A stretch of 42,745 bases of DNA from Chloroflexota bacterium (GTDB lineage Bacteria; Chloroflexota; Dehalococcoidia; Lucifugimonadales; UBA3495): contig JAPPCX010000068.1 of assembly GCA_028875655.1 (NCBI GenBank), positions 1 through 42,745 of the forward strand. The letters are read 5' to 3'. Position 1 is the first letter of the stretch, and each line of letters opens with the position of its first letter. Positions 9,801 through 41,937 of this stretch are shown in pieces. The notes beneath the pieces were generated by a model that was given only the letters and a program-made list of their open reading frames with translations, had not been told where the DNA came from and ran no database searches. The translations under genes and the position numbers were made by a program.

Positions 9801-11659
9801 TGTCGCGGGGGATCCTGGATTCCCGCTTTCGCGGGAATGACGGTGAGGTACACGGGAATGACAGGAAGGCGCCAGGGAGTGTCGGTTGGCAAGTGAGGAA
9901 GTGGATTCCCAGCGGAGGGGCCCTTGCCGGTGTTGCCGCCGCCGTCATGGGTACTGTGGCGGGCAATCTCGACGGCGTTATGCAACTTGCGGGAATGGGG
10001 CAGCGTAAATTGGAAGGCATGACCGCTCCGCTCTCAAGCTTTGATTTCTGGCGCAGCAGTCGCGCGATTCCGGAAACCCCGGAATTTGAGCCGTCCCGAC
10101 TGACCCCCTGGCTTGAAGCGGACAATTTTGTCGAAACGGGATTTCACATCACCGAGTTTCCGTTCTTCACTTTTCTCTTCGCCGACCTCCACGCGCACAT
10201 GATGACCATGCCCTTCGCCGTCCTGGCGTTGGCGTTGGGCTTTGCCCTGCTGGTTGGCTTGAGCCGGGTGTCGTTCCGCGCCCCATGGCCTTGGGTCGTA
10301 GTCTTCGTGCTCGCCCTGGCGGTGGGCAGTCTGTGGACGATCAATTCGTGGGAGTACCCGGCCTATGCTCTGCTGATGATCGGAAGCGTTGCCGGAGCTG
10401 CGTGGGTAACGCCGGGGTCGCTCAGGACTCGCTTTTCCGTTGTGGTTTTACTCGGCTTGTTGGCCCTGGCGGGGAGCTATCTCGCTTTTCAACCGTTCCA
10501 TGCCGCCAACGAGACCTTCGGGACGGGCATCGAACCCACCCGCTGGCGCACGCCCATATCCAATTACCTGCTGATCCACGCCTTGCCGCTGCTGACCGCC
10601 GCTTGCCTGCTGTTCGCCACGCTGCCCCGCGCCGTCGCTCCGGTTCTGGCGCGCGTAAAACTACGTCGACCGCTGCCGTCATTAGACCAATGGCTGTTGA
10701 GCGGCGTGGTCCTGGGCCTGCTCTTGGCGTGCTACTTCTGGGCGGCCGGCTTTATCACCGTTGGATTCCTTACCGTCGCGCTCACGCTCACCGCCTGGGC
10801 GTTGGTGACCTCCCTGGCATCTGAAGACTATCCGGAGCGTTGCGCCGACCTGATGGCGCTGGGAATGCTGGCGATGGCTCTGGCTATCGGGATTGGTGTT
10901 GACCTCATCCGCGTCGAGGGGGACATCGCCCGGATGAACACGCTGTTCAAGTATTACCTGGTGGCGTGGCTGTTGTTCGCGGCGTCCGGCGGGTACGGGT
11001 TTTGGCGGGGCTGGACGGCTGCTGCGACAAGCGGAAGGTTCGTGCGCAGCACGCTCAGGTGGATGGCGGCCTGCGTCGTTCTGGCCGTCTTTGCCGGCAC
11101 TTTGGTCTATCCGGCGCTGGCTACGCCGGTTCGCATCGCTGATCGATTCCATCCTCTGCCGCTGACGCTGGACGGGGAGGCGTGGATGCAGAGCGCCGTC
11201 TATCACCCACCCGACTGGTGCTCTGAGCGCGCGCTGGAGCCCATCGAAATCAGCCGGGATTACGATGCTATCCGTTGGCTCCAGGACAACGTTTCTGGAA
11301 CGCCCGTCGTGCTGGAAGGCCACGGCGTCCAGTATTGCTGGAACTCACGCATCTCCCAGTACACCGGTCTGCCTACCGTTCTGGGCTGGCCCTGGCACCA
11401 GCATCAGCAACGCGGCGACGGCGAAATCGTGCGACGACGCGCCCGGGACGTGGAGACCATGTACAGCACGCCCAGCCACGACCGTGCGCTGGAGTTGCTG
11501 GAGGAATACGGCGTTGAGTACATCGTCGTCGGGGCTTTAGAACGCGGATACTACGGCGAGCGGGGGATCGCCAAGTTCGATGCCATGGTCGAAAAGGGTT
11601 CGTTGACCCTGGCTTACGGCAACGATGGCACGCGCGTCTATCGAGTGCGGCGCAATTGA
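6818..11659 (+). CDS. Giant GT39-like / DUF2298 (YYY-type) fused membrane glycosyltransferase
   Basis: A 1613-residue polytopic membrane protein made of two halves. The N-terminal half resembles GT39/ArnT-type lipid-linked sugar transferases, with the acidic catalytic-type motif HPDE (Asp48, Glu49) in the first outside loop and about ten helices. The second half has the hallmark NYYYWGYF (residues 933-940) of the Chlor_Arch_YYY (DUF2298) family. An acidic loop holds two copies of a 12-residue motif, AP(F/Y)SEEWHATPP, at 438-449 and 470-481. A palindromic repeat is inserted in frame at residues ~983-1009. The only usable start seen is TTG 6818, 24 bases after gap, without a clear Shine-Dalgarno site. 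Sugar donor and acceptor are unknown; a role in surface glycan or protein glycosylation is inferred. Confidence 0.88.
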   Translation: MNALRFRIPGPLRHLWGANFLLVALLAVALALRLYGIDWDDGHGFHPDERSFYMRAGDMLCLLTAGPDADGPYCSAAHLRSLLAGDQFQGIEPGLPDLETVLSAERSPLNPRWFPLGSALIYALVLLRTLLEPFVDWGVMELRFAGRTLAGLADVGSVWLLYLIGRRMYGRWTGILAAGLTTFAVIHIQHAHFYRPEPFTVLASLGALWAMLRFIDSGRARDGALLGVLVGLAMAPKVSVAPILAPLVLTFLWVAKDRAQREWAQLSPGDIARVVPVAALAGVAALATFFITTPYAFLDFANFIGDIREQAGMAGEAGRFPFTWQYADTPVFLYQIRQTAVWGLGLPLGIVAWVAAPVTAWFAWRGGITQRSDLLLLAWAVPALVFLELFEVKFLRYVFPLMPFYILMAARMLVAFVIWARNRRRAVAGSAEPPPDDAPFSEEWHATPPTVGDDLIFDEPLFGDEPFPDAPYSEEWHATPPLAGATVAANTARQTPSPVVDSAAWRSRWNGVGSLINRYAYPISVATVAIVLMATVLYAIAFVGVYGRTHTAIAASDWINNNVPRNASIINGGSYWDEQIPNLRGYDVWTFPAYHPDRDLNKIPELIERLADADYVTFYSNRAYGSVARLPDEFPQSSTFYRLLFSGDLGYQMERAFTSYPTLAGVHLRDDPYGRAGLATPPIAPGGDGGQPDGIVINLGYADENVIGYDHPQVLIFRNVERLAERQIRESINAAAESTASTGGSLMLSPSALDAQQSGGTWPELFHRDGWANRVPWLSWLLVIELICLIAFPFTWWLMRPLPDRGTLFARVLGLLLVAWVAWWLVNAGVLRYSAEALWLAMFVVAIPSAVVLWRQWRPMLGWLREKWRLVLTAEALFLLAYLAFVLIRATNPDLWHPWRGGEKPMELAYFTAVARSSVLPPYDPWFSGGYLNYYYWGYFILSVPVRLTGIPPAAAFNVAVPLLFALTATGAGSLVYNLVAVSSFRRKAKSRTSLSRGILDSRFRGNDGEVHGNDRKAPGSVGWQVRKWIPSGGALAGVAAAVMGTVAGNLDGVMQLAGMGQRKLEGMTAPLSSFDFWRSSRAIPETPEFEPSRLTPWLEADNFVETGFHITEFPFFTFLFADLHAHMMTMPFAVLALALGFALLVGLSRVSFRAPWPWVVVFVLALAVGSLWTINSWEYPAYALLMIGSVAGAAWVTPGSLRTRFSVVVLLGLLALAGSYLAFQPFHAANETFGTGIEPTRWRTPISNYLLIHALPLLTAACLLFATLPRAVAPVLARVKLRRPLPSLDQWLLSGVVLGLLLACYFWAAGFITVGFLTVALTLTAWALVTSLASEDYPERCADLMALGMLAMALAIGIGVDLIRVEGDIARMNTLFKYYLVAWLLFAASGGYGFWRGWTAAATSGRFVRSTLRWMAACVVLAVFAGTLVYPALATPVRIADRFHPLPLTLDGEAWMQSAVYHPPDWCSERALEPIEISRDYDAIRWLQDNVSGTPVVLEGHGVQYCWNSRISQYTGLPTVLGWPWHQHQQRGDGEIVRRRARDVETMYSTPSHDRALELLEEYGVEYIVVGALERGYYGERGIAKFDAMVEKGSLTLAYGNDGTRVYRVRRN
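9765..9843. repeat. 79-bp palindromic repeat (family A, copy 2) inside a coding sequence
   Basis: Same architecture as 560-639: left arm 9765-9792, right arm 9815-9843, loop again beginning AACGTCTTTG, ends reading CGTCATTCC and GGAATGACGG. It is read through in frame within the GT39-DUF2298 gene and encodes a basic, Ser- and Arg-rich peptide between two membrane segments. A further arm-like fragment (CACGGGAATGACAGG) follows at 9851-9865, hinting at a nested or imperfect insertion. Confidence 0.9.
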
Positions 11660-12855: not shown

Positions 12856-13398
12856 CTACCGGTCCACCAGGCAGGCGATCACTTGGGGCACTGCGGTTGC
12901 TGCCCGTTCCGACAGCTCGCCGTCGTTGAGGGTGACGATGGGGTGCTCGATGATGGCCAGGCCGTACTCCGGGTCGCCGCGCATTCGGGACATGGCGTGG
13001 GCCTGGCTGATGAAGGGGCGGGTGGTCAGGACGGTTGAGGGTATGCCCAGGAGGTCGGTTTCCATTGCGTCGTGCACACTGCACGCGGTGCAGGACCCTC
13101 ATTCAGCGGTGGCGTGTATTGCCACGTCGATGCTCTTGGCGGTGCGCTGCAAGTCCTCGATGCGGGCCGGCCACTGCCAGCCGCCCTTGTTGTGCTCAAC
13201 GGTTCCCTTGATGTCGTACCGCTCGCCGATGATGGCGGCAATGCGCCGCAGCAGGTCTTCAGAGTGGGGCTTGTTGTTGGCGAACAGGCCGATGACCTTG
13301 CCGTCCAGCGTCGCCGGCCGCTGCGCCAGACGCGCCGGAGCCTGCGGCCCGTCGTCGCGGGGATCCATTGTGATGATTGAGGCGCCGTTTATGGTCAT
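12856..13398 (-). CDS. UGSC-family selenoprotein (in-frame TGA read as selenocysteine)
   Basis: A 180-residue protein if the TGA at 13101-13099 (minus strand) is decoded as selenocysteine 100. The frame continues without another stop for 80 codons to TAG. Around the TGA the protein reads HATAE-U-GSCTACSVHD, the U-G-S-C motif that names the UGSC (seleno)protein family, with further Cys at 103 and 106. Start ATG 13398 has a strong AAAGGAGG site. A hairpin lies 14-28 nt after the TGA (13071-13085). UGSC proteins are thought to be thiol/selenol redox enzymes, but I know of no established reaction. The gene follows a conserved partner on the same strand 43 bases upstream. A standard caller would report two fragments or a truncated protein. 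Confidence 0.88.
13071..13085 (-). promoter_or_regulatory. Bacterial SECIS-like hairpin of the UGSC gene
   Basis: Read on the minus strand, nucleotides 14-19 after the TGA (CGUGCA) pair with 23-28 (UGCACG), leaving the loop GUG at 20-22. The loop falls where the GGUC loop of the E. coli fdhF SECIS falls (about nt 19-22). An alternative 6-bp hairpin (CUGCAC/GUGCAG) starts nearer the TGA. The same geometry is repeated after the TGA of the glutaredoxin-like gene at 40604. Confidence 0.7.
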
Positions 13399-28778: not shown

Positions 28779-28824
28779 GGAACGGAAAAGTGGCCGAGCA
28801 CCTCCCGTTGACTACAGCCTGGGG

Positions 28825-29060
28825 GCATATCGTCGGGACTGGCTCGGGCCGGGCACTCCCACGGCGCCCGCGGGACATCGCTTACCGTTGCTGCCGTCAA
28901 GCCCTGGCGGAGTTCGCGAGCCTGCGCCGCGTGGGACCCGGCCGTCAACGCCACTCCCTGGGAAATTGGCCCTTGCGCCTTGCCGAGGGGAGGAATTCCA
29001 CCCCGCTGTGGCGGGTTGCGGGTATAGGGCACCGCCAGCTCCCCGTGTAGCACGACCACT
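28825..29060 (-). ncRNA. ffs: Signal recognition particle RNA, large (Alu-domain-containing) type
   Basis: On the minus strand the 5' part GUGCUACACGGGGAGC, then GCGGUGCCCUAUACCCGCAA, follows the Alu domain of the Bacillus scRNA. GGCGUUGACGGCCGGGUCCC matches its GGUGUUGACG segment. Long helix 5 can form: GGCCGGG pairs with CCCGGCC and UCCCACG pairs with CGUGGGA. The domain IV tip has CAGG ... AGCA, the SRP54-binding symmetric loop, but the apical tetraloop is not the usual GGAA. A consensus promoter ends seven bases before the assumed 5' end. The 3' end is approximate. The short open frames crossing this segment are not genes. Confidence 0.88.
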
Positions 29061-38368: not shown

Positions 38369-38871
38369 TGGCCGAACCGCAGACCGGACCTCACACCGTT
38401 ACCTGCCATTGGCATCCCACCGTGCCTACCGGGCTGTCTTGCGGGCAGTGCCGGCGATCCATCTGCACCGAGTGCATGGTGCAGGTTCCGGTTGGCATCC
38501 GGTGCCGCGAGTGCGGGCGCGCCCAGCCCTTGCCCACTTTCGATGTCCGCCCGGCTAACTACGCCCGCGCCGCCATTGTTGCCGTAATCATCGGAATCGC
38601 CGGGGTCGTCCTGACGGTCCTGCTGGCCCTCTACCTCGGCGGCCTGGCCTTCGTCGTCATGCCCCTGGGCGTGGGCTACGTGGCCGGCGAAATAATCAGC
38701 CGGGTGGTCAACCTCAAGCGCAGCCGCGGCCTCATGTACATCGCCGGCGGAACCGTTGTAGCCACGGTGATCATCTCGCTTTTCCTGCTCGATTATCGCC
38801 TGCTGGGACTATGGGGCATCCTTGCCACCGTGGGCGGCGTACTCATCGCGATAGCCCGCGTCCGGCTCTAG
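38368..38871 (+). CDS. B-box-type zinc-ribbon membrane protein
   Basis: A 167-residue protein. Residues 13-49 have a two-site zinc cluster: Cys13, His16, Cys25, Cys28, Cys33, Cys36, Cys46, Cys49, in the pattern CHxH-CxxC-CxxCM-VGIRCxxCG seen at the N-terminus of rhomboid-like proteins of Actinobacteria and Chloroflexota. Three to four hydrophobic helices follow. There is no rhomboid catalytic Ser or His motif, so it is not a protease. Start ATG 38368 overlaps the plsY stop (TGATG). Its stop overlaps the convergent recX stop by four bases. Function unknown. Confidence 0.8.
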   Translation: MAEPQTGPHTVTCHWHPTVPTGLSCGQCRRSICTECMVQVPVGIRCRECGRAQPLPTFDVRPANYARAAIVAVIIGIAGVVLTVLLALYLGGLAFVVMPLGVGYVAGEIISRVVNLKRSRGLMYIAGGTVVATVIISLFLLDYRLLGLWGILATVGGVLIAIARVRL

Positions 38872-39353
38872 CCTTCTCCAGCTCCGTATTCCTGCCATAG
38901 GCGCGCCGTCGTGTCTCCAGCCACGCCGCTGCCGAACCCCCGCCGGCGCAGGAAGTCCCACATCTTGCGGCGGAACGTATGGTAGTCCATTTCCCCGCCC
39001 GTAAGCCATTGTCGCGCCCGCCGCTCACCGGCCCGGTACGCGCTGCTGGACTCATCCAGGCTTTCCAGCGTGGCGTCGATGATGCCGTCCGCGATGCCTT
39101 TGGCCCGCAGTTCCCGCCGCAGCGCGAACCGCCCTCGCGGTCTGCGCCGTTCCCGGCTGTCCCGCCAGCGTTGCGCGAATTCGGCGTCGTCCAGATACCC
39201 GTAACGGCTGAGCGAGGCCAGCACTTGCTCAACGACGGGCTGGGAAAACTCTTTCCCAACCCGTCGGCGCACTTCGGTTATTGATCTCTGCCGGAAACTG
39301 ACGTAGCGCAGCGCGACTTGCAGCGCCCGCGCATAGTCATCGGATGCGTCCAT
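38868..39353 (-). CDS. recX: Regulatory protein RecX
   Basis: RecA modulator of 161 residues made of three-helix repeats: ALRYVSFRQRSITEVRRRV, SRYGYLDDAEFAQRWRDSR and RRELRAKGIADGIIDATL are typical. The ATG overlaps the recA stop by one base (TGATG), the usual recA-recX coupling. Its stop codon lies within the stop of the convergent membrane-protein gene, so the transcripts overlap. Confidence 0.93.
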   Translation of the reverse strand: MDASDDYARALQVALRYVSFRQRSITEVRRRVGKEFSQPVVEQVLASLSRYGYLDDAEFAQRWRDSRERRRPRGRFALRRELRAKGIADGIIDATLESLDESSSAYRAGERRARQWLTGGEMDYHTFRRKMWDFLRRRGFGSGVAGDTTARLWQEYGAGEG

Positions 39354-40468
39354 CAGTTGAGGCTGACCCGGTCCGCGCTGGCGAGGTGTGGCGCGTCACC
39401 GTTCCCTGCCGCCAGCCCGTAGCCGTTGCCAACCCCGTCCGGGTCGATTCCGTCGGGGTCGTCTTCGCCCCGGATCAGCGCCTCAATGGTGCCCGATATC
39501 TCGGGGTGTTCGCTCAGGAAATTCTTGGAGTTTTCCCGGCCCTGTCCCAGTCGGGTCTCTCCGCAGGAGTAGAAAGACCCGGCCTTCTTGATGAAACCTT
39601 GGTTCACGCCGATGTCCAGCAGGTCGCCCATCTTGCTGATGCCCTGGTTGAACATGATGTCAAACTCGGCCACCCGGAACGGCGCAGCTACCTTGTTCTT
39701 GACGATCCGCGCCCTGACCCGGTTGCCGATAATCTCCGAACCTTGTTTCAGAGATTCAGTACGGCGCAGGTCGATTCGCACCGAGCTGTAGAATTTCAGC
39801 GCCCTCCCGCCGGGCGTAACTTCGGGGCTCCCGTAGGTGACGCCTATCTTTTCCCGGATCTGGTTGATGAAGACCACCGCCGTCCGCGACCGGTTGATCG
39901 TGGACGTCAGTTTCCGCAGGGCTTGCGACATCAGCCTCGCCTGCATCCCCACGTGGATGTCCCCCATGTCGCCTTCGATTTCGGCCTGTGGAACCAGCGC
40001 GGCGACGCTGTCGATTACTACGGAATCCACCGCGCCGCTGCTGACCAGCTTTTCGGTGATGTCCAGGGCCTGTTCCGCTGAATCGGGCTGAGAGATGAGC
40101 AGATTATCCAGGTCCAGCCCGCAGTTGGCCGCGTATTGCGGATCCAGCGCGTGCTCGGCGTCGATGTATGCCGCCAGCCCGCCCTGTCTTTGCGTTTCGG
40201 TCATGATGTGGATCGCCAGGGTGGACTTTCCTGCCGACTCCCCGCCGTAGATTTCGGTCACCCGGCCCCGGGGCAGCCCGCCTACGCCCAGCGCAAGGTC
40301 CAGAGACAGCGAACCCGTCGGTATGACGTTGGTGATCAAGTGGGCCACCTGCTCGTCGCCCCGCATCACGGCGCCCTTGCCGTGGTCTTTCTCAATGCGG
40401 CCCAGCGCTATTTCCAGGGCCGCCAGCTTGTCCTTGTCCAGATTTAGAGTTTCCGGGTTAATCGCCAT
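39353..40468 (-). CDS. recA: Recombinase RecA
   Basis: Strand-exchange and SOS co-protease, 371 residues. Walker A is GGESAGKS (75-82; GPESSGKT in E. coli). [48 protein letters not shown] and the C-terminal acidic tail are all present; no intein. ATG 40468 is chosen over an in-frame GTG at 40480 because GTGAGG then serves as ribosome site and the N-terminus matches the family. The promoter upstream has a LexA-box-like sequence in its spacer. Confidence 0.98.
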
Positions 40469-40505
40469 ATCGAACCTCACACGCTGTTACGATTTATTCG
40501 CGACG

Positions 40506-40575: not shown

Positions 40576-40590
40576 GGGGCGCACGGCCCC
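40576..40590 (-). promoter_or_regulatory. Bacterial SECIS-like hairpin of the UXX-star gene
   Basis: On the minus strand, nt 14-18 after the TGA (GGGGC) pair with nt 24-28 (GCCCC) around CGUGC, which places GUG at nt 20-22, exactly as in the UGSC hairpin at 13071-13085. It lies after the TAG, so it need not encode protein. It could instead be a terminator stem, but only GTTTAAC follows. Confidence 0.6.
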
Positions 40591-40594
40591 TGCT

Positions 40595-40834
40595 CTAAAA
40601 GTCTCAAAACCCTCCCTCGAACCCAATCGTCACCACGCCGTTCTCCACGATTATGGGCGTAATGCGCTCCCCGCCCGAAAGCTCCAGCAGGGCCGGAATC
40701 TGGTCCGGCTGCTTGGACACGTCAATCTCGGTGTATGCCACCCGCTGCCGTCGATAGTGCATTTTGGCTTGAGCCGAGAACGGGCAATCAGGGTGGGTGT
40801 AAAGGACGATTTCGGTCTGCTCTGCGGTGGTCAA
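40595..40834 (-). CDS. UXX-star-type glutaredoxin-like selenoprotein (C-terminal TGA as selenocysteine)
   Basis: A thioredoxin-fold protein of 79 residues if TGA 40606-40604 is selenocysteine 77; it then ends U-D-F-stop (TAG at 40597-40595), the U-x-x-stop ending that names the UXX-star (seleno)protein family. The body is glutaredoxin-like: EIVLYTHPDCPFSAQAK (Cys17, second Cys replaced by Ser), ITPIIVENG, and VTIGFEGGF just before the TGA, much like the GFGG ending of that family. The start is TTG 40834, with AGGAG six bases upstream; an ATG at 40864 has no ribosome site. Promoter at 40884-40912. If the TGA is a true stop, the protein is 76 residues. Likely a redox protein with a Cys17/Sec77 pair. 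Confidence 0.78.
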
Positions 40835-40883
40835 AATAGTCTCCTGAACCGGGTTCTGCTTCATGTCTTGATGGGATTGCCCA

Positions 40884-40983: not shown

Positions 40984-41937
40984 TCATATCGGCACGGGCT
41001 GCTGTTCCAGCAAGTCCCCGATGACCGACTCCTGGGTGCGCTCCCGCAGACGCGCCATGCTTTTCAGGATGATGCGATGGGCCAGCGCCGGTCTGGCCAG
41101 CGCCTTGATGTCGTCCGGCGTAACATAATCTTGCCCCCGGATTGCCGCCAGCGCCTGCGCGCAGCGGTAAAGTCCCAAGGTGGCCCTCGGGCTCGCTCCC
41201 AGTTCAACGTCGGGGTGGTCGCGCGTCGCCCTGACCAACTGCACCAGGTATGTCCTCAGCACCGGGCTGATGTACACCCGTCGCACCATGTCCTGTATCC
41301 GCAACACTTCCTCCGCCGATGCCACCGGTTTGAGCTCCGCCAGCGGGTTAGCGTCTTCAAACCGCTCCACCATGGCCTCTTCGTCGTCTTCCGACGGATA
41401 GCCCAGGCTCAGCCGCAACAGGAAGCGGTCAATCTGCGCTTCCGGCAACGGAAACGTACCTTCCAGCTCAATCGGGTTCTGGGTCGCCAACACCAGGAAC
41501 GGCGCCGGCAATTGCACCGTGTCCTGGTCAACCGTTACCTGCCGCTCTCCCATCGCTTCCAGCAGGGCCGATTGTGTCCGGGGCGTCGCGCGGTTGATCT
41601 CGTCGGCCAGCACCACCTGCGAAATCACCGGACCCGGGCGAAACTCGAACTGCCCGCTCCGTTGGTTGTAGTAGTTGATGCCGGTGATGTCCGAGGGCAT
41701 CAGGTCGGGCGTGAACTGTATCCGTCGGAATTCGCAGTCCAGCGAGTACGCCAGCGAGCGCGCCAGCGTCGTCTTGCCGATGCCGGGAACATCCTCAACG
41801 AGGATGTGTCCGGCGCTGAACAACGCCGCCAGGGTGAACTCGATCACGTCACCCTTGCCGACGATGGCCCGCTGGATGTTGTCCCGGATGGCCCCGGCCG
41901 TGTCCGCAATCTGCTGTGTTGCCTGAGAACTTGTCAA
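40984..41937 (-). CDS. MoxR-family AAA+ ATPase
   Basis: A 317-residue AAA+ chaperone-like ATPase. Walker A is EDVPGIGKT, Walker B VLADEINRATPRTQSALLEAMGE, sensor 1 LATQNPIELEGTFPLPEAQIDRF, sensor 2 region GASPRATLGL. MoxR proteins usually act with a DUF58 protein and a von Willebrand factor A partner; neither is next to it here, which is a little unusual. The start is TTG 41937, overlapping the stop of the upstream nucleotidyltransferase by four bases (TTGA), with AGGATG upstream. The two genes form one operon. Confidence 0.92.
   Translation of the reverse strand: MTSSQATQQIADTAGAIRDNIQRAIVGKGDVIEFTLAALFSAGHILVEDVPGIGKTTLARSLAYSLDCEFRRIQFTPDLMPSDITGINYYNQRSGQFEFRPGPVISQVVLADEINRATPRTQSALLEAMGERQVTVDQDTVQLPAPFLVLATQNPIELEGTFPLPEAQIDRFLLRLSLGYPSEDDEEAMVERFEDANPLAELKPVASAEEVLRIQDMVRRVYISPVLRTYLVQLVRATRDHPDVELGASPRATLGLYRCAQALAAIRGQDYVTPDDIKALARPALAHRIILKSMARLRERTQESVIGDLLEQQPVPI

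Follow-up and report, generated by a model that had tools for sequence, protein, structure and literature searches.

The thioredoxin reductases that end in Gly-Cys-Sec-Gly carry their selenocysteine (Sec) on a flexible tail where it pairs with a Cys, a likeness to the UXX-star proteins, to which these large flavoproteins are otherwise unrelated. In ordinary glutaredoxins the glycine-rich loop that follows the fourth strand is the place where glutathione binds. UXX-star family 2 is listed in a 2026 review (PMC13188914), in which it is attributed to Haft and Tolstoy 2025. No function is known for this named family, and the role proposed below is one deduced from sequence. The locus considered here lies in a stretch of 42,745 nucleotides from an uncultured Chloroflexota bacterium of the Dehalococcoidia type (the window), and its small glutaredoxin-like gene is one that routine annotation cuts short at its most reactive residue.

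The gene occupies the minus strand, which the original prediction had left unstated, from 40834 to 40595 and comprises 79 codons, from a TTG start to a TAG stop. Its reading runs from the TTG through MTTAEQTEIVLYTHPDCPFS...VTIGFEGGF-U-D-F, with the UGA at 40606-40604 followed by GAC, TTT and TAG (40597-40595, minus strand), so that, with the TGA read through, the product of 79 residues is MTTAEQTEIVLYTHPDCPFSAQAKMHYRRQRVAYTEIDVSKQPDQIPALLELSGGERITPIIVENGVVTIGFEGGF-U-DF. The TGA-GAC-TTT-TAG ending announced in the original prediction is thus present, and so is the start at 40834 that it implied: TTG is found in 13 of 13 close sequences, each with a GGAG-type site just upstream, which in the window is AGGAG at 40841..40845 (minus strand). 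The program-listed open reading frame begins instead at GTG 40921, upstream of the supported start. The active-site motif CPFS (Cys17 to Ser20; 40775..40786, minus strand) contains a Cys that is invariant in 27 aligned relatives and falls within the glutaredoxin profile PF00462.

With the TGA read through, the protein scores 111 bits against NF041211, ‘UXX-star (seleno)protein family 2’ (curated cut-off, 100), covering the profile over its full length (1-71), and 103.7 bits without read-through. The family to which the gene had been assigned is therefore upheld by the profile, and the Sec or Cys that in family 2 is followed by just two more residues is found both in the window, as UDF-TAG, and in all 117 distinct relatives. 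NF041114 (UXX-star family 1; 64.4 bits, cut-off 72), NF047338 (family 3; 67, cut-off 97) and TIGR02181 (glutaredoxin 3, GRX_bact; 38.4 bits, cut-off 90) were not passed. By these matches the gene joins an already named family. UXX-star genes are present in 105 of the 147 genomes of the window's order and are rare elsewhere in the phylum, the genomes compared being mostly metagenome assemblies; most of the order-wide profile matches span the full profile across one in-frame TGA.

An ending of the U-x-x-stop type is by itself weak evidence. Among the TGA-ended frames of at least 100 residues in the window, 2 of 85 have a second stop three codons after the TGA, namely this gene and a chance case on the plus strand at 11657, and the corresponding rate in the loci of relatives is 2.9%, a value raised by homologues of the gene itself. 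The pattern therefore arises by chance in about 2-3% of TGA-ended frames, and outside, comparative evidence is needed for Sec. If the TGA were an ordinary stop, the protein would end in GGF and the second stop would be a coincidence; the base rate just given leaves room for it, and NF041211 is passed even without read-through. However, the sequence TGA GAC TT(T/C) stop is found in 13 of 13 close sequences (the window's and those of twelve relatives, which come from genomes of Dehalococcoidia, SAR202 and further Chloroflexota), which differ only synonymously behind the TGA, the TGA itself being unchanged throughout. Ten of them finish with TAG, two with TGA and one with TAA. In the two cases (L011, 3253-3264; L015, 3241-3252) the true stop is a TGA three codons after the Sec-TGA, and a single gene would thus use a first UGA for Sec and a second for termination.

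The search for TGC or TGT at the TGA position, proposed along with the original prediction, revealed Cys in eight distant relatives (L044-L046, L048, L050-L052 and L057). The distant Cys forms keep the short tail, as C-x-x, zero to two further residues and the stop (GIGCAF, GRGCFI, NVGCVC and GIGCTF at the very end). TAA or TAG at the Sec codon, which would have spoken for a plain stop, was found in none of the 117 distinct relatives, all of which have Cys or Sec there. In the 27-sequence alignment only C27 (the first Cys of CxxC/S), G65, P70 (the cis-Pro) and C/U87 (alignment numbering) are invariant. By taking into account the conservation, the Cys swaps, the hairpin described below and the full set of sel genes, the ordinary-stop reading was rejected, and we regard it as highly improbable. 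The comparative evidence for Sec decoding of the window's UGA is decisive: the codon at 40606-40604 is almost certainly read as Sec77 with the help of a SECIS hairpin that closely follows the stop codon, and the product ends in U-D-F.

The candidate hairpin, GGGGC-CGUGC-GCCCC (40576..40590, minus strand), lies wholly beyond the stop codon. Its 5 bp stem starts 13 nt after the UGA and places the apical loop, CGUGC, at 18 nt, in agreement with the bacterial SECIS rules published in PMC13188914. In most UGA forms the hairpin behind the UGA has an energy between about −8 and −16 kcal/mol, as compared with a median of −1.6 for ordinary TGA-ended genes used as a control, and in seven Cys forms, with energies of 0 to −5.1, the bacterial SECIS hairpin is absent. 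In distant UGA forms the stem sequences are very different, but the loops are of the G type and keep a similar spacing. Weaker hairpins were calculated for two UGA forms (L040, −6.4; L049, −2.9), and a third (L021) escaped the strict scan because of one mismatch. The window's hairpin is not more stable than its shuffles (z about −0.25), so that stability was rejected as a proof of SECIS; double-sided covariation in the stem was not found within the close clade, and in the Rfam search at gathering cut-offs none of the window's matches was to a SECIS family. Support for the predicted SECIS is conservation, together with the contrast with the Cys forms.

The window's genome holds selA (553 bits), selB (361 bits), selC, as a tRNA-Sec with a UCA anticodon, and selD, which itself carries an in-frame TGA. 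The sel status of the genomes compared fits the Sec or Cys form loosely, with selA over the cut-off in 8 of 10 Sec-form genomes versus 5 of 8 Cys-form genomes. Two genomes of about 95% completeness (G018 with L040, G041 with L043) have a UXX-star gene with UGA and no SelA match; the former has SelB and the latter SelB fragments only, and the missing SelA may reflect incompleteness. Two redoxin-like genes of the window's genome (L190 and L192) have an in-frame TGA in the motif WAPWUPHC and are thus further likely selenoproteins. The window itself contains a second predicted selenoprotein gene, of the UGSC family (12856-13398, minus strand), with the UGA at 13101-13099 in the context TAEUGSCTACS; it scores 140 bits with PF24696 and 107 bits with NF041046, just under the cut-off of 125, starts at ATG 13398 behind a good ribosome-binding site and lies directly downstream of the open reading frame 14452-13442. 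A bacterial large SRP RNA (RF01854, 138 bits) is found at 28794-29055 on the minus strand.

The lack of the second Cys in CPFS had led to the proposal that a selenol at the C-terminus stands in for the absent redox partner, and this is only partly supported by the sequences. Within the family-2 clade of the 117 distinct relatives, CxxS accompanies Sec in 81 of 81 Sec forms, and 26 of the 27 Cys forms have CxxC (17) or CxxT (9); the sole CxxS Cys form, L050, ends in GCVC, with an extra C-terminal Cys. What does not hold is the need for such a replacement, since family-1-like relatives pair CPYC with Sec and Sec alongside an intact CxxC would not be required merely to replace a second Cys. Six Sec/Cys changes suffice by parsimony, and the coupling of Sec with CxxS is represented by three independent pairs on supported branches, or six on all branches, too few for significance. 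At six loci (L150, L151, L157, L159, L163 and L164) of families f147 and f168, two UXX-star genes of the Cys form stand in tandem, the one with CxxC and the other with CxxT.

The glutaredoxin-like body recognized in the original prediction is borne out by PF00462 (37 bits) and by an AlphaFold2 model built from 15 sequences (pLDDT, 91.8; average of the last residue block, 93), for which the nearest solved structures by Foldseek/VIA are glutaredoxins, NrdH and a Prx5-fused glutaredoxin. The structure matches stop at residues 74-75, in the glycine-rich loop, and Sec77 comes directly after. DSSP analysis of the model gives residues 58-59 (beside cis-Pro60) and 77-78 as bridged; if these are bridged to each other, Sec77 would lie at the active site. 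The most likely reading, to which we give somewhat better than even chances, is that of a thiol/selenol redox pair in which Cys17 of the CPFS motif works with Sec77, carried at the very tip of the C-terminal tail. The tail comes after the fourth strand, at the place of the glutathione of ordinary glutaredoxins, so that Sec77 could reach Cys17. The selenolate would attack a disulfide, a sulfenate or a glutathione adduct, Cys17 would resolve the selenium intermediate as Cys-S-Se-Sec, and the bond between Cys17 and Sec77 would be reduced again by a low-molecular thiol or by thioredoxin. As a small thiol/selenol oxidoreductase the protein would then maintain the proper redox state of thiols, probably in the setting of copper or oxidative stress because of the gene neighbours in related lineages.

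In the window the gene is flanked downstream by recA (39353..40480, minus strand), conserved in the close clade and followed by recX (38868-39353), and upstream by a gene for a MoxR-type AAA ATPase (40984..41937, minus strand), found in most close relatives. As functional partners recA and MoxR were rejected, since the arrangement is confined to the family of the window; they are probably only chromosomal context. In four other families (f2, f9, f155 and f167) a copper P-ATPase (CopA) and a YHS protein are encoded directly upstream of UXX-star, the ATPase scoring above the TIGR01511 (copper ATPase) cut-off and the YHS protein being so named from its sequence pattern, DPVCGM...YYFCGPGC. The order CsoR-CopA-YHS-UXX on one strand is found in f2, f9 and f155, for Sec and Cys forms. 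About 12 families have, 75-200 nt downstream of UXX-star, a ResA-like, cytosolic-looking redoxin with the motif WASWUxCR, itself a predicted UGA selenoprotein resembling NF041054; in a genome without selA (G157) UXX-star and this neighbour are both Cys forms. Both linkages are always on the same strand as UXX-star, and CopA, YHS, the CsoR-type repressor and the redoxin occur all together in f2 and f9. Chance adjacency with a copper ATPase is estimated by us at about 0.3% per genome, for windows of 8 kb and a single copper ATPase in each genome, so that coincidence is a very unlikely cause of the linkage. The neighbours in related genomes thus point, by gene order, to copper and thiol redox handling. 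However, the WASWU redoxin was not found in f1, the family of the window, whose genomes, two of them in a single contig, have UXX-star, which rules it out as an obligate partner there, and the CopA-YHS pair of the window's genome is on another contig than UXX-star; for these reasons the neighbourhood evidence is not directly applicable to the window's copy.

The same neighbours sustain the main rival of the Cys17-Sec77 redox pair, namely that the two residues form mainly a soft-metal site from which Cu(I) (or Hg, As) is handed to CopA or YHS without disulfide chemistry. Thiol chemistry is the commoner activity of glutaredoxin folds, the redoxin is a more widespread neighbour than CopA (about 12 families versus four), and the window's copy adjoins recA; we consider a metal site less likely than the redox pair, even by taking into account the recurrent CsoR-CopA-YHS-UXX order in Sec and Cys forms alike, the ATPase score above the cut-off of its copper model and the suggestion in PMC13188914 that Sec in UXX-star proteins may be a metal ligand. 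A broader proposal, in which UXX-star 2 would act in redox or metal transfer linked to copper and be encoded with CsoR, CopA, YHS and the WASWU redoxin, is tentative; within it the C-terminal selenol would replace the second thiol of the active site in its function, as the second CxxC residue and the C-terminal residue change together.

Clearly less probable than either is that UXX-star 2 serves as dedicated electron donor of the adjacent WASWU redoxin, in the way of the glutaredoxin and peroxiredoxin halves of the Haemophilus hybrid Prx5. Such a role would agree with the close spacing on one strand in about 12 families, with the selenoprotein nature of the redoxin and the Cys forms of both neighbours in the SelA-less genome, and with the hybrid Prx5 (1nm3) being at the top of the VIA-align list, tied with many others; since f1 has UXX-star without such a redoxin, the protein must here have some role besides electron donation to it. 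The thiol/selenol pair of Cys17 and Sec77 is retained as the preferred reading, and the order-wide Sec/Cys swaps tied to CxxS/CxxC, along with the CopA-YHS and Sec-redoxin linkages, provide leads on partner and substrate.

When set beside known systems, the window protein is not distinct from the other members of family 2 as defined by NF041211, CPFS and the UDF ending being typical of its close relatives. With UXX-star families 1 and 3 it shares the fold and the C-terminal U/C-x-x-stop, the family-1-like relatives found here differing in having CPYC and GGGUxx rather than CPFS. Classical glutaredoxin 3, NrdH and the YruB glutaredoxins have in common with it the fold, the Cys of CxxC/S and the cis-Pro region; however, they run on into a third helix and lack the C-terminal Sec or Cys.
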